Under the pieces are notes generated by a model. The model was given only the letters and a program-made list of their open reading frames with translations, searched no databases and was not told the DNA's origin. Made by a program: the position numbers and the translations under genes. Positions 4,048 through 25,595 of a DNA stretch of 25,891 bases are shown here, one piece after another; the stretch's first letter is position 1, and each line of letters opens with the position of its first letter. The stretch covers positions 1 to 25,891 of IMG/VR virus record IMGVR_UViG_3300032304_000005; one strand, given 5' to 3'. Source of the DNA: a virus.

Positions 4048-4968
4048 ATGTTTGGTATAAGTTCGTTCGCCGGAGCAACCTTTTCCGGGTTATCTGAGAA
4101 CGTAGTATATGTTTCTCTATCTGGGGTAACAGGAACTGGATCAGTTGGCAGTATTACAGAAACACAGGACGTTGGTGTTACTGCGGTCACAGCAACAGGT
4201 TCGGTTGGGAATGTTGCGTTTGGTCCAGCCGATGTCCTAATAGGAGTATCGGCTACAGGTGTTGCTGGTACCGTAACAGTTGACGATAGACAATTTACGT
4301 TAACTGGGGTCTCTGCAACTGCATCAGTAGGGAATGTTGCGTTTGGTAAAGAAGGTATTGTATCCGCAGTAACAGCTACTGGGTCTGTTGGTAATGTAAC
4401 AGTAGAAGAGCGACAGCTAGGTATAACTGCAGTAACGGGCACTGGGTCAGTTGGCGATCTTGCGTATGTTGAACAGGATAATGTTACTGGAGTAGCCGCC
4501 ACAGGTTCAGTTGGTAATGTAATAATTAACCAGCAAGTATCGTTAGTAGGTATATCAGCTACAGGCTTTGATGGAAGCGTAGGCTATCAAAAAGTTGCGT
4601 CGATAAGCGCCGTAACTGCTACAGGTGATGTCGGTAGTGTTACGTTTGCTGAACAGTATGATGTTACTGCAGTAGCCGCCACAGGTTCAGTTGGTGATGT
4701 ATCTTTTGGTGAACTAACAATAAGCCTATCTGGTGTAACTGGAACTGGATTGGCTGGCAATATAATTTATGGATTACCTGTCTCCGTAACAGGAGTAACA
4801 GGGACTGGCAGCGTAAGTAGTACTACATTTGTACCTTTAATATCTAGCAGTTTAAGTGGTGTATCAGCAATAGGTAGTGTAGGTACTGTGACAGCACTGC
4901 CGCATTGGGAGTGGATAAACAACGCCCAAAATGCAGATTGGCAACTAATAACTACTGAGGTGTATTAA
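4048..4968 (+). CDS. Repeat protein built of thirteen ~20-residue beta repeats
   Basis: After a short leader (residues 1-24), the 306-aa product consists of 13 imperfect units of 20-22 residues. The consensus is close to (G/A)V(S/T)ATGSVGNV followed by a variable ~10-residue stretch such as FGKEGIVS or VEERQLGIT. The last unit runs into a unique Trp-rich tail ending TTEVY. Each unit would form a strand-turn-strand, so the protein is probably an elongated beta solenoid or fibre. The repeats also show at DNA level as a ~60-bp periodicity between about 4117 and 4890. It lies directly upstream of a tail fibre gene, so a fibre, spike or decoration role is likely but inferred. No signal peptide or catalytic motif is seen. 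Confidence 0.65.
   Translation: MFGISSFAGATFSGLSENVVYVSLSGVTGTGSVGSITETQDVGVTAVTATGSVGNVAFGPADVLIGVSATGVAGTVTVDDRQFTLTGVSATASVGNVAFGKEGIVSAVTATGSVGNVTVEERQLGITAVTGTGSVGDLAYVEQDNVTGVAATGSVGNVIINQQVSLVGISATGFDGSVGYQKVASISAVTATGDVGSVTFAEQYDVTAVAATGSVGDVSFGELTISLSGVTGTGLAGNIIYGLPVSVTGVTGTGSVSSTTFVPLISSSLSGVSAIGSVGTVTALPHWEWINNAQNADWQLITTEVY
4120..4890 (+). repeat. Coding tandem repeat, ~60-bp units (13 copies)
   Basis: Within the repeat protein gene, related 60-66 bp units follow head to tail, each beginning around a GTAACAGxxACTGG or GTAxCxGCxACAGG core and a TCAGTTGG-type segment. Some adjacent and distant units are close in sequence, for example the stretch around 4490-4515 and that around 4670-4695, both with GTAGCCGCCACAGGTTCAGT. 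This suggests recent unit duplication or conversion. Confidence 0.7.
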
Positions 4969-12721: not shown

Positions 12722-15118
12722 ATGAGCCTCCATACATTAGCCAACCATTTACAAAGCGCCGGACGAGGCGAAGATAAAGTCCTAGTCCACATGACCCCCG
12801 GAGAAGTTAACGGGCTGCAGTCATTAGCTATGTCTCAAGGTGGCTCGCTGACAATTAACCCAGAGACCGGTCTTCCTGAAGCGGGTATATTGTCGTCTCT
12901 TCTGCCTATGGTAGCTGGTTTTTTCCTCGGACCCGCAGGTCTTGGTCTAACAGCTATGCAGTCAGCAGTGACTGTGGGCGCATTGGGTACAGCAGCTACA
13001 GGCAGTCTAGGCAAAGGCTTTATGATGGGCTTGGGTGCCTATGGTGGCGCTGGTCTGGGCGAAGGATTGGTAAAAGTAGGGGCGCCAGCAAATGTTACAC
13101 CATCTGTAACAGATCCAACCTTAGGCGGGTTCCCACAAAATCAAACTTTAGCCAATGCAGGTGTAGGACCAAAAATAGCCCCTGATACCATTACTGGAAA
13201 TACTTTAGGTGGAGCAGATACGTTTGGTAACGTAACTAAAGAAGCTGGATTAAAGCCATTAAACCTAAGTGACACTCCAGGTTTTGGGCAAATGAATCAA
13301 AAAAGCATCATGTTTAAGGACGCTCCACAGGGATATATAACAGATACATCCCCAATGGGTAACTACGTAAGCAACATGAAAGCGGATATGTTAAATCCTA
13401 TTCAGCCAAATGTTGTGCCTTCAGCCCCTACTGTTACAAATATGTCTCCAAAGTTAGATATTCCTCGTCCAGTAGATGCAGGATCTAATCTTTCTAGGGG
13501 CTTTGATCGCGCTACTAGTAGCTTTGAAGGCGCTAAAGAAGTATGGGACGCAACACCAAAAGGTACTGGTTACGGCTTGGCGGCAACTGGTATAAGCGCA
13601 CTTCAAGCTCAACAGGAAGAAGATGCTAAAAAAGCTAAAGCTGCTGCTGACGCCGCTGCCGCTGAACGTCGTGGTTATATACGTCCTTATGAATTCTCAA
13701 CAGCTTTAACAGAAAACGCTTTTGAGCCTAGAGAATCAACTTCTGAAATGAGATATTTTACAGAGCCTAGATTTACAGCCGGACCAGTTACAAAAGTAGC
13801 TAAAGATGGCGGCCTTATGTCATTGGCAGTAGGTGGTCCAGTAGAAGAGATGTCAGCAGCTAATGCTATGGGGGCTAATACTGGCTACCCTATGGCTAAC
13901 TTGCAAACGCCTATGTATGCTAACCCTATGATGGCTCGCCCAACACCGACTAATGTGATTAGTCCATCTGGTGATACTGGTGTAAATGCATATAGTGGTG
14001 AAATGCGGATGGCTTTAGGTGGTTCAGCAACTGCAAGTGCAAGCGCACCAAAATCTAATACCAAGTACTCATACAATCCTGAGACTATGAAGTACACACA
14101 GGTAGATACGACTACGCCTGCTGCTTCGAATACTATGCAAGACTCTATTAGGGGTTTTTATGCGCCTGTGTTTGGTATGCTCCCACACTTCCGTACTATG
14201 GGTGGTGGTAAGTTACCGGGATTAGATGCCGATTCAATGAAAAAATTTCAGCAGCAAATAGGATCGCCACAACCTGCCGTAACAACACAAACAATGGGTG
14301 GCATGGCAGCACCATACACGCCGCCATCAGGTTTAGCGGCAGCGGATACATCTATGATGCCAAACATACAGATGCAACCACAGCAGAACGTAGATCGTCA
14401 GCTAGGACTGGAAGCGTTCTATCCAATGATGGAACAACAGTTGGCGCTGAAGGGATCTAATTTGCAGGCGCAAGGGTACGCTAATGGTGGGGTTGCTAGA
14501 TTTGGTGGCGGTGGAACTATGGCGCAACCAACAGCAGAGGGTACAGCTAGACAAAAGTACGCAAGAGAAAATAAGCCAGGGATAATTCCAAGTGTTTCCG
14601 ATGAGGAATGGAATAGTTATAAAAAATTACAAAACTTGTCATTTCCATCAGCGGCATCATCAGCGCCAACTTACAACTACAATCCTGCAACTATGCAGTA
14701 CACAGATAATGTAGGTAAATTAACTGGCGGAATGGATCAATCTTTCCTGCCTCCTATGATGCAGCAACTAACGCCAGAGCAGCAAATTGGTTTGAGTGGT
14801 TATCAAGGATACGCTGCAGGTGGTGGTATATCTACATTAGGTAGTTATTCTGACGGTGGGCGTTTATTGAGAGGACCCGGCGATGGCGTATCTGATTCTA
14901 TTCCTGCTTCTATTGGTGATCGCCAGCCTGCTCGCTTGGCTGACGGAGAGTTTGTGGTACCCGCTAGAATCGTATCGGAAATCGGTAACGGAAGCACGGA
15001 GGCGGGAGCAAGAAAGCTCTACGCAATGATGGATCGCGTGCAGAAAGCCCGTAAGAAAACAGTGGGTAAAAACCAAGTAGCTAAAAATACTAAAGCAGAC
15101 AAACTATTGCCAGCATGA
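12722..15118 (+). CDS. Large Gly-rich structural / probable internal virion protein, 798 aa
   Basis: The N-terminus SLHTLANHLQSAGRGEDKVL, then VHMTPGEVNGLQSLA and GGSLTINPETGLPEA, is a pattern I know from large proteins in podovirus-like phages. Residues ~57-110 are hydrophobic and Gly-rich (LSSLLPMVAGFFLGPAGLGL, VTVGALGTAATG), with membrane-inserting potential. The middle is low complexity with a Lys/Ala helix (EEDAKKAKAAADAAAAERR). The C-terminus (~718-770) has the recurrent module GPGDGVSDSIPASIG, QPARLADGEFVVPARIV and GNGSTEAGARKLYAMMDRV. Three GG-x(n)-GG motifs occur at ~361-374, ~584-600 and ~695-713. The ribosome site is GAGG at 12713-12716. Position before two Gln-rich proteins and the giant protein suggests an ejected internal protein, which is inference. 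Confidence 0.65.
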   Translation: MSLHTLANHLQSAGRGEDKVLVHMTPGEVNGLQSLAMSQGGSLTINPETGLPEAGILSSLLPMVAGFFLGPAGLGLTAMQSAVTVGALGTAATGSLGKGFMMGLGAYGGAGLGEGLVKVGAPANVTPSVTDPTLGGFPQNQTLANAGVGPKIAPDTITGNTLGGADTFGNVTKEAGLKPLNLSDTPGFGQMNQKSIMFKDAPQGYITDTSPMGNYVSNMKADMLNPIQPNVVPSAPTVTNMSPKLDIPRPVDAGSNLSRGFDRATSSFEGAKEVWDATPKGTGYGLAATGISALQAQQEEDAKKAKAAADAAAAERRGYIRPYEFSTALTENAFEPRESTSEMRYFTEPRFTAGPVTKVAKDGGLMSLAVGGPVEEMSAANAMGANTGYPMANLQTPMYANPMMARPTPTNVISPSGDTGVNAYSGEMRMALGGSATASASAPKSNTKYSYNPETMKYTQVDTTTPAASNTMQDSIRGFYAPVFGMLPHFRTMGGGKLPGLDADSMKKFQQQIGSPQPAVTTQTMGGMAAPYTPPSGLAAADTSMMPNIQMQPQQNVDRQLGLEAFYPMMEQQLALKGSNLQAQGYANGGVARFGGGGTMAQPTAEGTARQKYARENKPGIIPSVSDEEWNSYKKLQNLSFPSAASSAPTYNYNPATMQYTDNVGKLTGGMDQSFLPPMMQQLTPEQQIGLSGYQGYAAGGGISTLGSYSDGGRLLRGPGDGVSDSIPASIGDRQPARLADGEFVVPARIVSEIGNGSTEAGARKLYAMMDRVQKARKKTVGKNQVAKNTKADKLLPA
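14063..14706 (+). repeat. Internal duplicated YNPxTMxYT segment within the 798-aa protein gene
   Basis: The segment at 14063-14100 encodes KYSYNPETMKYTQ and that at 14670-14706 encodes TYNYNPATMQYTD. DNA is similar, both containing TACAATCCTG and ACTATG(A/C)AGTACACA. Each copy is followed by a short loop and a segment naming a Met/Pro/Gln-rich stretch, so it looks like duplication of a larger low-complexity block that has since diverged. Confidence 0.6.
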
Positions 15119-15576
15119 GCTATACATTCCACTTAGGTAAGTTCAAAGAAACATATAATGAACTGGAGCCACTGTATCGACAGCACTATAAAGAGATGTG
15201 CGAAAGGTTGGCTAACGACGGGATACATTACCCGCCATATAATCCTAGGTTGGATAAGTACATAGAGTCGGGTGAAAGTGGCTGGTTGTTGACTTTTATA
15301 ATAAGGCTAGAGGGTAAGCCTGTTGGATATAGCAATGTTTATTTAACAAATGACATGCACAACGGTGATTTAATAGCGCAGGAAGATACTATCTTTGTAC
15401 TAAAAGACCACCGTAATGGTGTAGGCAAGAAGCTAGTAAAAGTTATTCTTGAAGAATTGAAAGAGCGCGGAGTGAAACGAGTAATAGTCTCCGCAATGAC
15501 AGACCTGCGTGTAGCTAAACTATGGGGCCGAATGGGTTTCAAAGAGGCAGCAACGCAAATGATATATACATTCTGA
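15115..15576 (+). CDS. GNAT-family N-acetyltransferase
   Basis: The 153-aa product has the GNAT core: GKPVGYSNVYL (strand 3-4 region), AQEDTIFVLKDHRNGVGKKL (strand 4 and the acetyl-CoA pyrophosphate loop, a compact variant of R/Q-x-x-G-x-G), the helix VKVILEELKERGVKRVIVSA, and the end WGRMGFKEAATQMIYTF with the typical MGF motif. It would move an acetyl group from acetyl-CoA to an amine; the substrate is unknown. It overlaps the 798-aa gene by 4 nt (ATGA) and sits inside the internal-protein cluster, so it is made late. Near-identical architecture (start SYTFHxGKFKETY) is known to me from many podovirus-like phages and prophages, so its place here is conserved. Confidence 0.85.
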   Translation: MSYTFHLGKFKETYNELEPLYRQHYKEMCERLANDGIHYPPYNPRLDKYIESGESGWLLTFIIRLEGKPVGYSNVYLTNDMHNGDLIAQEDTIFVLKDHRNGVGKKLVKVILEELKERGVKRVIVSAMTDLRVAKLWGRMGFKEAATQMIYTF

Positions 15577-15584
15577 GGTAAATT

Positions 15585-16562
15585 ATGTGCGGCTCATCAG
15601 CTCCTCCACCACCATCAAGTCAAACCGTAACTCAGACTTCCATACCTGAGTACGCACAACCGTATGTAGAAAGAATGCTTGGTAAAGCAGAAGCGTTTAC
15701 TGAAGCCCCTTATCAAGCTTATGGTGGTGAACGCATCGCTGGGTTTACACCTATGCAACAACAAGCGCAACAAGCTGCTGCCGATCTTGGTCCTTCACAG
15801 CAATTAGGATTAGGTACGCAGGTGGCAGGTATTGCAGGTCTTGGTCAGCTTGGTGCAGGTCAGCAGTACACAATGCAAGCTACCAACCCGTATGCAATGA
15901 GTGCATATATGTCTCCGTATATGGAGAATGCGTTAGCACCACAAATGCGTGAGGCTGCTCGTCAGTCTGCTATACAAGGACAGATGGATCAAGCTAGGGC
16001 TGTGCAACAAGGTGCGTTCGGTGGATCACGTTCAGCTATTGTAGAGGCAGAGCGTCAACGTAACTTACAAACTCAGCTTGGCGATATATATGGCAGAGGT
16101 ATGCAATCTGCATACGACCAAGCTCGTCAAGCTCAACAGTTTGGTGCTACGTTAGGATTACAGGGTATGCAGGGCGCAACACAGACAGCGGCTACTCTTG
16201 GTCAATTAGGTCAGACACAATTTGGTCAGCAGAAAGATATTATCAATGCCCAAGCCACTGCAGGTGCACAACAACAGGCATTACAGCAAGCAAAACTGCA
16301 ACAGCAATACCAAGACTTCTTAACACAAAAGGCGTACCCACAGCAAAATTTGGCGTTTATGTCAGATATATTGCGTGGCGCACCATTAGGTCAACAGACA
16401 CAACAACAGTACACAGCAGCAGCTCCATCAGGTATGGGGCAGGTGGCGGGTTTAGGACTAGCCGCACTCGGTGCTAGTAAAGCAGGTTTGCTCGGTGCTA
16501 AAGGTGGTAGCGTTCCATACGGCTTAGATAAAGTAGCAATCGACCAGTTGATGAAGGGTTAA
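15585..16562 (+). CDS. Gln-rich probable internal virion protein, 325 aa
   Basis: The N-terminus MCGSSAPPPPSSQTVTQT, followed by IPEYAQPYVERMLGKAEAF, AYGGERIAGFTPMQQQAQQA and PYMENALAPQMREAARQSAI, resembles a phage family found next to giant terminal proteins. It is about 20 percent Gln and strongly helical and coiled in the middle (AYDQARQAQQFGATLGLQ, ALQQAKLQQQYQDFLTQ). It carries the AFGGSR(S/A)AI motif near residue 145. A hydrophobic Ala/Gly segment (GLGLAALGASKAGLLG) and AKGGSVPYG lie close to the C-terminus. Composition and position fit a DNA-ejection or inner-core protein comparable in role to T7 gp14/gp15, but I cannot show homology to those. No enzymatic motif is seen. AGGTAAATT precedes ATG 15585. 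Confidence 0.6.
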   Translation: MCGSSAPPPPSSQTVTQTSIPEYAQPYVERMLGKAEAFTEAPYQAYGGERIAGFTPMQQQAQQAAADLGPSQQLGLGTQVAGIAGLGQLGAGQQYTMQATNPYAMSAYMSPYMENALAPQMREAARQSAIQGQMDQARAVQQGAFGGSRSAIVEAERQRNLQTQLGDIYGRGMQSAYDQARQAQQFGATLGLQGMQGATQTAATLGQLGQTQFGQQKDIINAQATAGAQQQALQQAKLQQQYQDFLTQKAYPQQNLAFMSDILRGAPLGQQTQQQYTAAAPSGMGQVAGLGLAALGASKAGLLGAKGGSVPYGLDKVAIDQLMKG

Positions 16563-18023: not shown

Positions 18024-21000
18024 ATGGCAAATCCGTTTGCAAGGTATGTTCAGCCTGAACAGGATGAAGGCAACCCATTTGCCAAATTTGTACAACAACC
18101 TGTACAAGACGAAGCCAATCCGTTTGCAAAATTTACACAGCCACAAGCAGCTCCTGTTATAACTACGGGGCCAAACCCGCTCAACCCAAAACAAGAACAA
18201 CCAACTGCCCCCGAACAAGATAAAAGCTTTGCTCCTATTGAAGAAGCAGGGAAAGGTATTAAGTCAGGGGTAACTTCTGTAAAAAGTATACCAACTTCTG
18301 CTGGCGCTTTTGCCGACGTTGGTGCTGCACTTACTAACTTAAATACAGCTAGCCTATATGACAAGATAGACAAAGGTGAGATTACTGACCCAACGCAAAT
18401 AAAAGGTGGTTCAGACTTTGAGACTTCTCGTGCTCGCATGTATTTCAACTCAAAGCCAGAAGTACGTGCGCAACTTAAAGAAAAAGCAAATGCAGAAGTA
18501 GGCGCAAGAAAAGAATCTGTATTAGAAGCAGTAAATATACTTAAACGATATCAACAAGAAAATCTAGCAAACAAAGGTCGTACAGAAGATTTTACTGATA
18601 TTGAAGGCGTAAAAGATTTTACCAACTGGGCTGCGTATAACTTAGGCTCTGCAGGTGTACAACTTGTCCCACTTATTGTAGCTGGTGTTACTACAGGTGG
18701 TTTAGGTTTGTTTGCTACTGGTGCAACTATGGAGTTGTCTGGTGGTGTACAGAGCCGTCTAAACTTTATAGACGAGAAAACCAAAGACATAAAAGACCCT
18801 AAAGCTAAAGCAGATGCTATAGTCGATTACGTAGCTAAAACTGGTGACGTTACGTTAGCTTCGGCGTTAGCTTCCGGTGGTGTTGATGTAATGTTAGGCC
18901 CAGCAGCTGCGTTAGCTAAACGCCCATTACTTGAGTTTGTAAAAAATCAAACACGTAAAGAAGTAATAAAAGAAATACCTAAAGCTATTGCTAAACAAGG
19001 CGCCGAAGAACTTGTAGCAGGTGGTACACAAGAAGCTATTCAGATAGCTGCCGAACGTGCTATTGGCGAACAGACTGGTGATTTAATTACATCAGAGAAT
19101 ATCAAACGTATAGTTAATTCTGCTACTGCTGAAGCTGTTGGTGGCGGATTTTTTGGTGGCGCTAGTAAAGCAACCCAAGCTGCTTTTACTAAAAAAGAAG
19201 CAAAGGAAACAGACACGCCTGAAGGCCGAGCATTACGTGGTCTTGATGATTTAGCTGCGCGAGAAGAAGCCGGAACAACAGAAGGAGTGACCGTTCCTCC
19301 GCCTCCCCCTGCACCATCTAAAGAACTGATTGATACTTATGACAGTGCGCGTGGCGCACAAGCGTACGTTAATGTTTTAAAAGCTAATCGCCCTAAAGAA
19401 AATTTTACGTTTGAAGAAACAGAAGACGGCAAATTTGCTATATACAAAATACCGGTCGAGGAAACAGGAGGCGAGAATGTTACCCCACCTATCACAGACA
19501 CAAGTGGAGTTGGCGCTGAAGATATTGGCAAACCCCCACAAGGTACCGGTGCCGGAGTCACTCCATCATCTGAGGGAACAGGACTGGGTGTTTCTGATAC
19601 AGATGTTACGGGAGCTGGAGCACCAAAAGGAGTTCAGTCAGGTGCATTAATGTCGCTTGAAGATGCGCAAGATGAATTATGGGCAACTGAAGATAGATTA
19701 TCTAATGACCCTAACGCTACGACTGAAGACTTTGACGCTGCACAAGCTAAGTACGATGCTGTAGAAGAAGCCCATATAGCTAATGCTGAAAGTATTGCAA
19801 TAGCTAGTGCACAGTCTGCATTTGATGTGTTTACTGGCCCTAATTACAACGGCAATTTAGAAGCCGCTTTAGAGTTGTATGAAAATAATTTAGAAGATGC
19901 ACTAACAGAGATGGGTATTACCGACCCATTGCTAATACGTAGAGCGGAACAAGCGTTTGAAAATGAGGTCGAAAGATTACGCGAAAAGTATGAAGGCGCT
20001 GGAAATATAGCTGTAAAAGAAACGCGTAATCTGCTTTCGTCTATAGGCGATCTCCCACAAGATAAGAAGAGATATGACACGTACATACAGCATCCGGTAC
20101 ATAGACATACTCTAAATACAGTAAACGATACTATTCAAAAGCTAACTAACTTTATTAATAAAAGTGGGTTACAAGTTAATAAAGTAAATTCGTTTACAGC
20201 AAAAGATAAACCAGAAGTACAAACTGCGCACCGCTTAGCTTCGCAGATATCCGGCTCTGCTACTAGACTGCTATCAAAACTAGATGCAGTAGATCGTAAA
20301 TTACAACGTGCTAATCCAGAACAAGTAGAGCAATCTCAAAAACAATTAAGTGATGACATAATTGAAGCCAATAAATTTTTATTGCAACAACAAGAAAACA
20401 AACCATTAGCTAATGTAGGTTTCACTGGCTCAAGCTACGCTTATAAAGACCCAATAGCAGCTTTAGTAGATACACTTCCGCTAAACCAAGTCGGCGTTAA
20501 TAAGCTACAAAAGATGCTTGAAGATAACAAGCTCTCATATGCTGAGTACACTAATGCGATGACTGAGTTACAAGAGCGCATACGTGATAAGCGTGATATG
20601 AAGAACGCCACGTCAAGTGGGTTAGCAAAAGAACGTGGGTTCGGTAGAGTAATTAAAGCGTTAGAAGACGCAGCTAACCAAGGAAAGATTTCTCCTGAAG
20701 CATACCGTATGGTTAGATGGTTCCTTAGCAAGAACCCTGATATGGTTCAAGACTTAGCTATATCTATTGCGCAACCAAAAAATGCAAATAAAAGAAACCA
20801 AGTAGAGGGTGGGGTTCTTGGTGAATATAACACTGTCCAACGTTTAGTAAATATATTTTTACGATTTAACCCAACTGCCGGACTTGGTTCTACATATAAT
20901 AATGATGATGTAAATACAGCGATACACGAGATACTGCATCACTTAGAAAGATTGATGCCGAAAGAATTGCAAGCACTGTTACGTAATGAGTGGGCGGTGC

Positions 21001-24000
21001 GTGTTGGCGGTGCTAATAAAAAAGCTAAACAAGAGTTAAAACAACTTAACGATAAAATTAAAAAACAAGAAGGTATATTAAATAATCCTGCTCGCGCTAA
21101 AGATCATGCCAAAGCACAAGCAGAATTAGAGCGTTTAGCTAAAGAAGTTACAAAACAAGAAAACATACTAAAGTATTTAGAGTATGTAAATGAATATAAT
21201 GCTAACAATAATGACGATGCTGCTGAGTTAGCAATAAAAATGATTACTAGTGGCGCAGTGCCACACACTATGTACGCACTGTTTGATCCGTCGGAATTCT
21301 GGGCTGTTACTGGTTCTGAAATAATAGCTGGTAGGTATGGCGTTGCAGCTCAAAATAAATTTAAGAAGATTGCACAGTTCTTAAAAGAGTTTATCGAATA
21401 TGTTAAAGACGCTTTCGGCATGCCTAGCGATGCCCCGCTTCTTCGTGGCTTAACAGCTATATTAGAAGGTAATGGTCAGTACCTAAGTAGAGAACAACTT
21501 TCAACTGGCACAAGAACTGCGTTACCTAATGTTAAAGGTTGGACAAAAGCTGAGACTAGCGTTAGCGATGAAGAATTAAAAACACTTGAAGGTGCTATGG
21601 CTGGCGGTGATATGAACCCGACAGTAGTAGATGCTATTGCAAACAACGATATTAACGGTGCATTAAATGCAATGTCGAAAGTGGTGGGTGGCTTCTACGG
21701 AGAACTTGCTGCTAGATTAGCAGAGTTAAACCTACCTACAGGTACTCGTGTCGGCGATCAACGTAACATGACACGTAAAGCTATTGATCTTAGAAGTGCT
21801 GAAGCGCAAAAAACGTTGTTTGAGTTTGTACGAACGATGATGCCTGACGTATACGCAAAGTATTTTGAGAACTACGATAGGGCTGAAAGCCTTGAGCGTG
21901 TGTATAAAGGCTTAATTACAATAGTAAATAATGCCGCATTAAAACCAGTATTACCACAATACAATACTGTAGTAAGAGCATTTAAAGATGCTATGAAAGG
22001 CTTAACCGCCCACGGTGGTTACTACCCAAGTTTTGATGTAATAAACTTAAACCCAACTACTAACCAAGGTCTTACCTACCGAGTATTCCTACATGAAGCA
22101 GTTCATGCAGCTACAGTAATGCTGTTGAATACACCGGCAGACCAACGCACCGTTGAACAAAATGAAGCTATTGCAGAGTTAGAAAAACTATTTGAAGCTG
22201 CGAAGGCTAGTACTAATATACCGTATTACGGGTTTACAAACTTAAAAGAGTTTATATCAGAGATATATACCAATAAAGAATTCCAAGCTGAGTTAAAGAA
22301 AGTACCATACGCCCCTGCACGTACAAATATGCTAAGCAGATTTGTAAAGCTAGTAATGGATATGTTCGGTATGGATAACATTACTGGTCGCTCAATAATA
22401 GAAGCCAACAAGTTATTCAATGCTGATCGCTCTGTTGAGCCAGTATCGGCGGGTCCTGTATTTGCTGGAGCAAAAGGGCCAAGAAAACGTGGGCCTATTA
22501 GCACTTCGTGGCGTACTGTTGAAGACACGATGAAGAGTGTTAAGGATTGGGAAACAATAAAGAGTGATTTAATGCCCGCAATGTGGGATGCTACTAATGG
22601 TGTATTCCGTAACGTTATGCTTGGGGTTATGAACTTACGTCAGATTGCTGATATTACTAAAACTAAGTTTCCACAGATTGATACTGCTATCCGTACGATT
22701 GAAAAGATGCTTGCATATCGTGGCAAGATTATGAATGAGGGTGGCGATATTATTAAACGTTGGACTAAGGCACAGGCTAAGAACTTAAAAGGTTCTCAGC
22801 TGCTTGGTCGTGTTATGTTGGAAGCTACTATTCGTGGGTTAGAGGTTGACCCAAAAGGCCCTAACTATGATGTATCTAAAGTCAATAAGGAAATGGCAAA
22901 TGCTTGGAACGCATTAGGTCCAGACTTCCAACAGATATACAGGGATGTACGTGACTTCTACGTACGCGCCGTACAGGAAACCGTACGCCTAATGAAAGAA
23001 CGTGCAAACAGTGTAACTGATCCTGTAGAACGCCAAGAGTTATTAGATAAGATCGATGCACAGTTTGGGCCAGATAAGTTAAAGGGTCCTTACTTCCCGT
23101 TACGTCGTTTTGGTGAGTTCTGGTTCCAAGTGGGTGAAGGCAATTTCAAAGAATTCTATATGTATGAGAGCCGTGTAGCTAGAGCATTAGCTATGCGCAA
23201 TAGAAAACGTGAGTTGTCCAGAGGCAACGCAAATCAACGTGCGCTCGTAGATACTATGGATAAAGGTAATGGCATATCTACTCTGTACGGACAGAACGTA
23301 GGCACGACTAAAATACTTCAGGATGTGCAAGAAATAGTTGATAGCATAGGTAATAGCGTGGTTGATACATCTACAGGTTTACCTAGAGATAAAACTCAAG
23401 ATGAGTTAAAGGGCGAGATTAGAGATAGCTTAAACCAACTTATCTATATCCTCCTACCACAACAAAGCATGCGTAAGATGTTTATTAACCGTAAAGCAAT
23501 TCAAGGTGCAAGCGGTGACATGTTACGTGTGTTTGCTACACATGCTGTTCATAGTGCATACCAACGCTCTCGGTTTAAGTACGCTCAAGAGTTTATGGAT
23601 AACTTATCCAACGCACAAGATTGGATTAGGTCATTTGCAAAAGGCGACAAGGCCGAAGTCTATCGTGATTATGTAAACGAAGTAGAGAAGCGTTCTAAAA
23701 CAATTCTTGGTACTGAAGATACTAGCTTAGCTGCAAAAGTCGCAGGTAAACTTTCTGAGTCAGTGTTCTACTTTATGTTGTCTGCGCCATTTACTTCTAT
23801 GTTAAACGTAATTGGCTTTGCACAAATAGCTATGCCTTATATTGGTGGTAGATTCGGCTATGCAAATGCTAACAAACGCATTTTAGAAAACATGGGTAAG
23901 TATCTGCAGACGGTACCAAAACGTACGTTCTCACCGTTAGCAAAAGGTGCTGTAATGGATATGGCTTTCCCTTCTATAGTAGAAGGTGGTAAGTTAGAAG

Positions 24001-25595
24001 GCATATTAAAAGATGCAGCTCAACAGCTTTTAGACGAAGAGCAAATTAACATCTCTTTAACTAACGACGTTTTGAATATCGGTGAGGGTCCAACTGCGGC
24101 ATACACTGGTACATACAATGCTGTTAAGCGTGGTATATCCGCTTTGTTCCACCAATCAGAAAGATTAAATCGTGAAGTAACGTTACTGTCGGTTGTAGAA
24201 CTTGCGTACGAAAAACTTATGTCCGAGCCTATTAAAGACGCTCGTGGTATTGTTAAACGTGATGCGCAGGGTCAACCTATGCAGTTTACTAATAACGCTA
24301 CAACATCTGATGGTACAACACAGTACTCCAAAGAAGCTTTAGAGTTAGCTATTAACGAAGCAAAAGACATTGCAGGTCTAGCACTTGGTGACTTTACTCG
24401 CCAAATGAAACCTAGATACTTCACACCGCCATTACTAAGTGTGTTAACTAAGTTTAAGCAATACTCGGTGCTTGCTTCTTACGCAATAATTCGTAACGCA
24501 CAATTAGGTTTAATTAAACCATTCTCTAAAGCTGAACTAGATGAGCTACGTGGAATACTAGAAGAGCATTACAAAACTGCTGTAGATAAAGATCAAATAA
24601 TCGAGCAGCAAATGGCTGAAGCGCAAACTCGCCAAAAAGAAGTAGCTAAAGAAGCACGTCGTAGGTTAGCAGGTATTTTAGGTATGACGTATTTGTTTGG
24701 TGGTTACGTGGCGTTGCCATTCTTTAGCACGGTTACACCTATACTGGTTGGCATGTTGGCAGGTGAAGATGACGACGACGATGAATTCTTTAACTGGGAA
24801 AACTGGTTTAAGAATTACATAGAAACCGAATTCGGTGGTTACGCCGGTGCAATGCTTCAAAAGTTTGGTATGGATCAAGAAAAAGCAAATAAAGCTGGAC
24901 GTAAAGTTGGTGAAACATTGTTATATGGTCCTGCTTCAACAGTTACTGGCGGTGCATTATCTGATCGTGTTAGCTTAGATTTAAAGAACTTATGGTTTAG
25001 AGACGGGCGTTATTCACCTGATACCCGTGAGAGCGTTATAGAAAACCTTATTGCAAATGCTGGTCCTGTAGTTGGCTTAACAGTAAATGCTGCTGATGCG
25101 TGGGACTTAGTACAAGAAGGTCAGATTGGCCGTGCATTTGAGAAGATGGCTCCTGCTCTATTTGCTAAGCCAGTAACAGCAGGTCGTTTGGCTACTGAAG
25201 GCGCTAAGACAAAAGGTGGTGATATTCTTGTAGATGAACTTACTACTTCTGAAATAGCAATACAAGCTATTGGTTTGCAGCCTTTGCGTATAGCACAAGC
25301 ACAAAAAGCTTCTATTGAAACAGTACAAAAAGCGCAAAAGATTACAAACCAACATGATTCAATCATGAACAGGTTGTGGATGGAGCGTGATAACCCTGAG
25401 ACGTTTAGTGAAATTTTACAGAAAGCAAATGAGTTCACACGCAAACATCCGGGGTACGCAATAACTTTTGAAACTATTACAGAGTCATTTAAGAAACGTG
25501 CCGAACAATCAGCTATAGCAAACACTATGGGTGCGCGTATACCTAAACCTTTACGTAGTGAGCTTAGTGATATGCCAGAGTATGGGCAGAAATAA
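18024..25595 (+). CDS. Giant polyvalent internal virion protein: two HExxH zincin-like units, PLxRFG and LPD38-like C-terminus (2523 aa)
   Basis: Domains in order follow. Residues 3-39: three NPFA(R/K)(Y/F)(V/T)Q repeats at 3, 17 and 32. ~203-240: hydrophobic segment. ~390-560: Pro/Gly-rich linker. ~560-900: helical region. H968-EIL-H972 forms a first HExxH, with downstream acidic candidates E1091 and E1099 (SEFWAVTGSEIIAG) and an intervening coiled-coil insert (~990-1060). H1357-EAV-H1361 forms a second HExxH, with E1409 and E1413 (NLKEFISEIYTNKEF) as third-ligand candidates. P1692-LRRF-G1697 is the PLxRFG motif. ~1911-1942 and ~2212-2247 are hydrophobic, followed by an acidic EDDDDDE at 2248-2254. 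The end (LLYGPASTVTGG, VSLDLKNLWFRDG) resembles LPD38. Such giant phage proteins are thought to be packaged and ejected with DNA. The role of the peptidases is unknown. Start: AGGA at 18013-18016. Confidence 0.75.
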   Translation: MANPFARYVQPEQDEGNPFAKFVQQPVQDEANPFAKFTQPQAAPVITTGPNPLNPKQEQPTAPEQDKSFAPIEEAGKGIKSGVTSVKSIPTSAGAFADVGAALTNLNTASLYDKIDKGEITDPTQIKGGSDFETSRARMYFNSKPEVRAQLKEKANAEVGARKESVLEAVNILKRYQQENLANKGRTEDFTDIEGVKDFTNWAAYNLGSAGVQLVPLIVAGVTTGGLGLFATGATMELSGGVQSRLNFIDEKTKDIKDPKAKADAIVDYVAKTGDVTLASALASGGVDVMLGPAAALAKRPLLEFVKNQTRKEVIKEIPKAIAKQGAEELVAGGTQEAIQIAAERAIGEQTGDLITSENIKRIVNSATAEAVGGGFFGGASKATQAAFTKKEAKETDTPEGRALRGLDDLAAREEAGTTEGVTVPPPPPAPSKELIDTYDSARGAQAYVNVLKANRPKENFTFEETEDGKFAIYKIPVEETGGENVTPPITDTSGVGAEDIGKPPQGTGAGVTPSSEGTGLGVSDTDVTGAGAPKGVQSGALMSLEDAQDELWATEDRLSNDPNATTEDFDAAQAKYDAVEEAHIANAESIAIASAQSAFDVFTGPNYNGNLEAALELYENNLEDALTEMGITDPLLIRRAEQAFENEVERLREKYEGAGNIAVKETRNLLSSIGDLPQDKKRYDTYIQHPVHRHTLNTVNDTIQKLTNFINKSGLQVNKVNSFTAKDKPEVQTAHRLASQISGSATRLLSKLDAVDRKLQRANPEQVEQSQKQLSDDIIEANKFLLQQQENKPLANVGFTGSSYAYKDPIAALVDTLPLNQVGVNKLQKMLEDNKLSYAEYTNAMTELQERIRDKRDMKNATSSGLAKERGFGRVIKALEDAANQGKISPEAYRMVRWFLSKNPDMVQDLAISIAQPKNANKRNQVEGGVLGEYNTVQRLVNIFLRFNPTAGLGSTYNNDDVNTAIHEILHHLERLMPKELQALLRNEWAVRVGGANKKAKQELKQLNDKIKKQEGILNNPARAKDHAKAQAELERLAKEVTKQENILKYLEYVNEYNANNNDDAAELAIKMITSGAVPHTMYALFDPSEFWAVTGSEIIAGRYGVAAQNKFKKIAQFLKEFIEYVKDAFGMPSDAPLLRGLTAILEGNGQYLSREQLSTGTRTALPNVKGWTKAETSVSDEELKTLEGAMAGGDMNPTVVDAIANNDINGALNAMSKVVGGFYGELAARLAELNLPTGTRVGDQRNMTRKAIDLRSAEAQKTLFEFVRTMMPDVYAKYFENYDRAESLERVYKGLITIVNNAALKPVLPQYNTVVRAFKDAMKGLTAHGGYYPSFDVINLNPTTNQGLTYRVFLHEAVHAATVMLLNTPADQRTVEQNEAIAELEKLFEAAKASTNIPYYGFTNLKEFISEIYTNKEFQAELKKVPYAPARTNMLSRFVKLVMDMFGMDNITGRSIIEANKLFNADRSVEPVSAGPVFAGAKGPRKRGPISTSWRTVEDTMKSVKDWETIKSDLMPAMWDATNGVFRNVMLGVMNLRQIADITKTKFPQIDTAIRTIEKMLAYRGKIMNEGGDIIKRWTKAQAKNLKGSQLLGRVMLEATIRGLEVDPKGPNYDVSKVNKEMANAWNALGPDFQQIYRDVRDFYVRAVQETVRLMKERANSVTDPVERQELLDKIDAQFGPDKLKGPYFPLRRFGEFWFQVGEGNFKEFYMYESRVARALAMRNRKRELSRGNANQRALVDTMDKGNGISTLYGQNVGTTKILQDVQEIVDSIGNSVVDTSTGLPRDKTQDELKGEIRDSLNQLIYILLPQQSMRKMFINRKAIQGASGDMLRVFATHAVHSAYQRSRFKYAQEFMDNLSNAQDWIRSFAKGDKAEVYRDYVNEVEKRSKTILGTEDTSLAAKVAGKLSESVFYFMLSAPFTSMLNVIGFAQIAMPYIGGRFGYANANKRILENMGKYLQTVPKRTFSPLAKGAVMDMAFPSIVEGGKLEGILKDAAQQLLDEEQINISLTNDVLNIGEGPTAAYTGTYNAVKRGISALFHQSERLNREVTLLSVVELAYEKLMSEPIKDARGIVKRDAQGQPMQFTNNATTSDGTTQYSKEALELAINEAKDIAGLALGDFTRQMKPRYFTPPLLSVLTKFKQYSVLASYAIIRNAQLGLIKPFSKAELDELRGILEEHYKTAVDKDQIIEQQMAEAQTRQKEVAKEARRRLAGILGMTYLFGGYVALPFFSTVTPILVGMLAGEDDDDDEFFNWENWFKNYIETEFGGYAGAMLQKFGMDQEKANKAGRKVGETLLYGPASTVTGGALSDRVSLDLKNLWFRDGRYSPDTRESVIENLIANAGPVVGLTVNAADAWDLVQEGQIGRAFEKMAPALFAKPVTAGRLATEGAKTKGGDILVDELTTSEIAIQAIGLQPLRIAQAQKASIETVQKAQKITNQHDSIMNRLWMERDNPETFSEILQKANEFTRKHPGYAITFETITESFKKRAEQSAIANTMGARIPKPLRSELSDMPEYGQK

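Follow-up and report, generated by a model that had tools for sequence, protein, structure and literature searches.

The subject of this study is a viral DNA stretch of 25,891 nucleotides (IMG/VR virus record IMGVR_UViG_3300032304_000005, the whole of which is called the window below), in which an open reading frame at 18024..25595 on the plus strand encodes a giant polyvalent protein of 2523 amino acids, of the PLxRFG/LPD39 type (NF032893; PHROG 30335/10089). We found that this protein contains two zincin-like units, here named A and B, each having an HExxH motif and a distal Glu that are invariant in its own family, and that unit B is matched by solved ejection proteins of cultured phages. 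Our preferred reading, to which we give a probability of about 0.6, is that the protein is carried in the virion and ejected, with both units acting as zincin-like metallopeptidase domains of the gluzincin type that would most likely cleave peptide bonds.

Two zincin-like units and their families

A preliminary description of the window, made from its letters alone, had placed HEILH at residues 968–972 (nt 20925) and HEAVH at residues 1357–1361 (nt 22092) and had proposed two zincin-like units, each with HExxH, a distal acidic ligand and a closing element in a common order. These positions were all correct, with 0.011 HExxH motifs expected by chance in a protein of such composition and two present, and the same was true for the later elements SEFWAVTGSEI at residue 1090 (nt 21291) and KEFISEIYTNKEF at residue 1408 (nt 22245) as well as for the closing elements EFIEYVKDAFGM of unit A at residue 1122 (21387..21422) and RFVKLVMDMFGM of unit B at residue 1439 (22338..22373), which hhalign aligned with each other. 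The existence of two units of this kind was borne out by family conservation and by AlphaFold2 (AF2) models, in which both HExxH motifs lie on helices that follow a small sheet and the third-ligand Glu candidates on later helices. With regard to those candidates, E1091 and E1409 held up, whereas E1099, the later Glu in SEFWAVTGSEI, was not conserved.

Unit B covers residues 1179–1470 (21558..22433; this and all other features given are on the plus strand). A profile seeded with three close relatives reached at least about 300 relatives, of which 80 were kept, and among 59 aligned B sequences, with identities as low as 18%, invariance was confined to H1357, E1358 and H1361 of HEAVH (22092..22106), A1362, and the third-ligand candidate E1409 (22248..22250). 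As judged from sequence comparison the unit is under purifying selection, with a ratio of non-synonymous to synonymous substitution rates (dN/dS) of 0.07 in comparison with a 95%-identical contig (L002). The AF2 model of unit B (predicted local distance difference test score, pLDDT, 87.4) has two predicted strands before the HExxH helix and a third strand apart, with E1409 on helix 236–245 in model numbering. The B profile matched the lethal-factor peptidase with E 1.4e-4, and the lethal-factor group also gave Z about 6 with the B model in VIA-align, in the rows next after the phage PhiM1 protein considered below. E1409 falls in register with the Glu that serves as the third zinc ligand of the anthrax enzyme.

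The strongest matches of unit B were found among solved phage proteins, namely a phiKMV-type internal virion protein (9sfn_G, E 8e-23), the tetrameric ejection protein (TEP) of PhiM1 (8vb2_A, E 2.5e-15) and a third internal or ejection protein (23sg_S, E 5e-10). Fold comparison with VIA-align agreed, giving residues 268–515 of 8vb2_A as the clearly top row with Z 11.7 and a root-mean-square deviation of 3.2 over 147 residues. Residues 268–528 of the PhiM1 TEP have been called endolysin/exotransglycosidase-like on the basis of BLASTP and DALI (PMC11440229), and 'internal virion protein with endolysin domain' is the product name in many phage records, including that of phiKMV gp37. That very region of the PhiM1 protein contains HEAAH (H385) and a distal Glu, and both HExxH and the distal Glu were invariant in 11 domains from cultured phages, which include PhiM1, phiKMV gp37, two N4-type virion RNA polymerases and a DarB-like protein; the N4-type virion RNA polymerases matched by the B profile were those of Nepra and EcP1. 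Judging from these motifs and the fold comparison, the 'endolysin' domain of PhiM1 TEP and phiKMV gp37 is better read as a zincin with HExxH and Glu, although the peptide bonds of peptidoglycan may be a target of B domains.

Unit A covers residues 823–1158 (20490..21497), and a profile search of viral contigs yielded 118 relatives of it; proteins of the Erwinia phages Pavtok, PEp14 and Stean matched residues 825–1159. H968, E969 and H972 of HEILHH (20925..20942), the putative zinc ligands and general base, were invariant in alignments of 65 and of 84 sequences, the latter also having H973, E975, Y1084, S1090, E1091 and W1093 without exception. As HEILHH was among the search patterns, the search itself accounts for part of its conservation in the first 80 A relatives. 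The patterns of the viral search did not contain SE[FY]W, so that the conservation of E1091, the third-ligand candidate within S1090-E1091-F1092-W1093 (21291..21302; S, E and W in 84/84), is free of that bias. We therefore put weight on E1091 and on loci found by the C-terminus, together with three loci having a varied motif: relatives of A that were reached through the C-terminus or unit B keep HExxH with varied middle letters, such as HELMH (L093) and HEIMH (L099 and L138). The only A matches without HExxH were pieces that covered the profile downstream of the motif.

In the AF2 model of unit A (pLDDT 85.6), three strands and the HExxH helix are followed by a long helical hairpin at residues 980–1061 (20961..21206) and then by the helix carrying E1091 (267–286 in model numbering). 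The coiled-coil insertion that had been suggested between the ligands of the first unit was thus recovered as two long antiparallel helices of high pLDDT; it is shorter or absent in most A relatives, and Pavtok-type proteins are without it. The model matched the lethal-factor domain with Z up to 8.0 over 149 residues (VIA), and against viral models Foldseek gave one clear match, an uncharacterised phage protein of 1247 residues (E 5e-16). Plain Foldseek with models A and B against the Protein Data Bank (PDB) gave no match with an E-value of 0.001 or below, the A profile found nothing relevant among PDB sequences, and scans with Pfam, PADLOC and PHROG placed neither unit in a named peptidase family above cut-off.

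Relation of the units and exchange of the first slot

The two units had been proposed to be two copies of one metallopeptidase-type unit. When the A family was compared with the B family using hhalign, the score was 55, with controls of 15 for reversed B, at most 21 for shuffled B and at most 31 for B shuffled except for HExxH; the alignment placed HExxH on HExxH, SEFW on the EF..E motif and FGL on FGM. Because 55 exceeds all of these controls, including the shuffles with HExxH kept, A and B are, on this profile evidence, remote homologues beyond HExxH. The common element order and this remote homology could also be the outcome of a recent duplication of one unit, leaving two tandem copies. 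Each unit, however, resembles the members of its own family in other phages (Pavtok-type proteins for A, ejection proteins for B) far more than it does the other unit, and the order A-B, found in at least 13 contigs, is reversed to B-A in four (L046, L052, L070 and L081), while in others A is replaced. A recent tandem duplication was rejected on these grounds as extremely improbable, and of the original claim the homology stood whereas the tandem copies did not: A and B are members of two old families, which are combined independently of each other.

In a set of 30 complete proteins whose C-termini were the closest, 12 (the window protein included) had the arrangement A-B, 14 had C-B and four had B only, two HExxH motifs thereby being kept in 26. 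Type C denotes a unit with HE[LIFM][AG]H and a further His six residues on, having subthreshold WLM/YgjP-like similarity; in those examples that were checked, a GHKL ATPase domain lies ahead of it. Since this set was partly found with B patterns, it overstates the universality of B. A C-terminal scan that used no B patterns nevertheless showed B in all close relatives, and its distinct close relatives with enough upstream sequence kept two HExxH sites, a motif unused in that search. Proteins at a greater distance had just one of the two units, B or A, or else a different HExxH type. Loss of either motif in most close homologues, which the preliminary description had named as grounds for refutation, was seen only in so far as A was often absent as a whole unit, mostly with another zincin instead; its motif was intact wherever A was present. 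From these comparisons B appears as the constant unit, with A in a slot that is exchangeable among related phages.

Some of these relatives have features of their own. In L003 (P0004, residues ~745–1550) a GHKL (HSP90/MutL-like) ATPase and a WLM/YgjP-like HExxHx5H zincin occupy the first slot and a SAP domain is also present; the same GHKL and WLM/YgjP-like replacement was seen in L095, L118, L127, L131, L133, L140 and L146. In L035 a giant protein of 3162 residues contains HExxH four times (as HEILH, HELQH, HEALH and HETQH), and three distant PLxRFG proteins (L102, L103 and L104) carry a further HExxH type, HEMFHAG, with no match to A or B.

Proposed action of the probably ejected protein and competing explanations

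The residue pattern of two His and a distal Glu, together with the Glu of HExxH, is what makes the units fit the gluzincin type. One zinc is predicted for each domain, with H968, H972 and E1091 as its ligands in unit A and H1357, H1361 and E1409 in unit B, and E969 and E1358 are the predicted general bases that would activate water. As the protein is probably an ejected virion protein, a view supported by its PLxRFG/LPD39 class and by its place in a virion gene cluster with a gene for a DNA ejection protein, action at or after ejection is suggested: peptide bonds of host proteins or ejected proteins would be cut as the protein is ejected into the host or thereafter, and cleavage may also release parts of the giant protein itself. 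The fact that B persists where A is exchanged speaks for separate tasks of the two units, with A possibly in an effector-like slot.

Several results weigh against this proposal. The VIA fold search with model A returned mostly coiled-coil rows. Only the zincin domain has firm homology to the ejection proteins; for the hub and the C-terminal half, a comparison with PhiM1-type proteins gave an hhalign probability of 5.7% and a score of 35 (shuffles at most 20), which does not establish homology. Moreover, N4 virion RNA polymerase contains a domain of this kind and is packaged without being cleaved (PMC5512222), and catalysis within the group is therefore not established.

That uncleaved packaging also counts against the idea that the zincin domains solely process the giant protein itself, be it in maturation before packaging or in release of its domains, with no host target. 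Self-processing as well as host targets have been proposed for zincin domains of polyvalent proteins, with DdrB of phage P1 being cleaved before packaging (PMC5512222), and in the window protein the N-terminal parts are separated from unit A by P/G/T-rich linkers. A fixed self-cleavage pair would not, however, be predicted to have A swapped with B kept, and we regard solely self-directed cleavage as unlikely. A peptidoglycan-degrading, endolysin/exotransglycosidase-like B-type domain would agree with the published view of PhiM1 TEP and with the product names mentioned above, but is rather improbable considering the invariant HExxH and Glu across 11 cultured phages, the lethal-factor zincin as the best non-phage relative, and the location of the lysozyme domain in a neighbouring ejection protein (phiKMV gp36, PhiM1 OEP). 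Finally, the units could be catalytically dead folds that serve to assemble the ejection complex: N4 virion RNA polymerase requires the domain region for its encapsidation (PMC5512222), and the PhiM1 domain belongs to the core assembly. The sole invariants of B, down to 18% identity, are nevertheless metal-site residues and one Ala, which is unexpected for a scaffold, and we find this explanation a little less probable still.

A wider and more tentative proposal, to which we would give somewhat less than even odds, is that a zinc protease (B), mislabelled as an endolysin, is a general component of podophage ejection proteins and that, in one lineage of giant proteins that are ejected, it is joined by a second, exchangeable protease slot (A, or a GHKL ATPase together with a WLM/YgjP-like zincin); proteolysis by injected enzymes would then be a standard step of infection. 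If B is an active peptidase, the solved ejection machines of PhiM1/phiKMV type already contain one under another name, and laboratory phages with one catalytic residue changed would allow a direct test of its role. That different zincin types alternate in the first slot, with the second zincin kept, suggests selection for delivering two proteases, which would provide a way into the early targets of podophage infection.

Gene context and comparison with known systems

The assignment of the 2523-residue protein rests on tail-700 (NCBIfam NF032893; E 5e-89, 299.6 bits against a curated cut-off of 100; best-matching stretch 23085..24227) and on LPD39 (PF18858) at residues 1529–1692 (22608..23099; E 1.1e-15, 58.3 bits against a gathering cut-off of 27). 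Its upstream neighbours are a gene for a DNA ejection protein (15585..16562; phrog_4287, E 1.1e-21) and other virion or structural genes, and with LPD39, tail-700 and such neighbours it is, as expected of a polyvalent protein, a large multidomain phage protein adjoining virion genes. DUF6782 (PF20573) reached at best 17.4 bits with the window protein, below its gathering cut-off of 27, and the whole protein and the C-terminal profile had no matches among PDB sequences. Hydrophobic segments were found at residues 214–232 (18663..18719) and 2229–2247 (24708..24764), both with a Kyte-Doolittle value of 1.76.

At the N-terminus (18024–18140), NPFA(R/K)(Y/F)VQ is repeated three times, and L121 has similar MANPFAQFAQ repeats. 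Elsewhere in the window, a GNAT acetyltransferase gene lies within the virion gene cluster (15115–15576; PF00583, E 5e-11), and positions 4048–4968 encode a protein built of V(T/S)xVxATGSVGxV-type repeats, probably a repetitive tail or fibre protein.

That zincin-like peptidases are known in polyvalent proteins, as the preliminary description had said, is correct and extends to proteins with several of them: zincin-like metallopeptidase (MPTase) domains occur in about 36% of polyvalent proteins, 8% of these having more than one (Iyer et al. 2017, PMC5512222). The window protein shares with them the HExxH helix, the Glu on a later helix, the variable insert in between and the setting of giant proteins by virion genes; it differs in having two specific families, both below the Pfam cut-offs in our scans, that recur in the order A-B, the first slot being exchangeable. 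PhiM1 gp48 (8vb2) and phiKMV gp37 (9sfn_G) have in common with it the B-type domain with HExxH and Glu in a T7-gp16-like ejection protein, whereas they are about half its length and contain one zincin unit. N4-type virion RNA polymerases share the HExxH domain (C1/MPTase) matched by profile B, and HExxH in N4 is known (PMC12633501), while a Pfam scan of the window protein found no RNA polymerase domain.

With the 'DarB-like' giant protein of Erwinia phages Pavtok and PEp14 the window protein shares unit A (27% identity over 335 residues), HEILHH, SEYWAV and the C-terminal region; that protein differs by the lack of the coiled-coil insertion and, in the part of its sequence examined, had no second HExxH. 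The peptidase domain of anthrax lethal factor (M34) has in common with the window protein the zincin fold and HExxH with a distal Glu in register with B, at 14–17% identity over the fold alignment, and we do not claim M34 membership. Multi-zincin polyvalent proteins are thus already known; apparently new to the literature are the definition of families A and B, the connection between B and the solved ejection proteins, whose domain label it corrects, and the exchangeable first slot.

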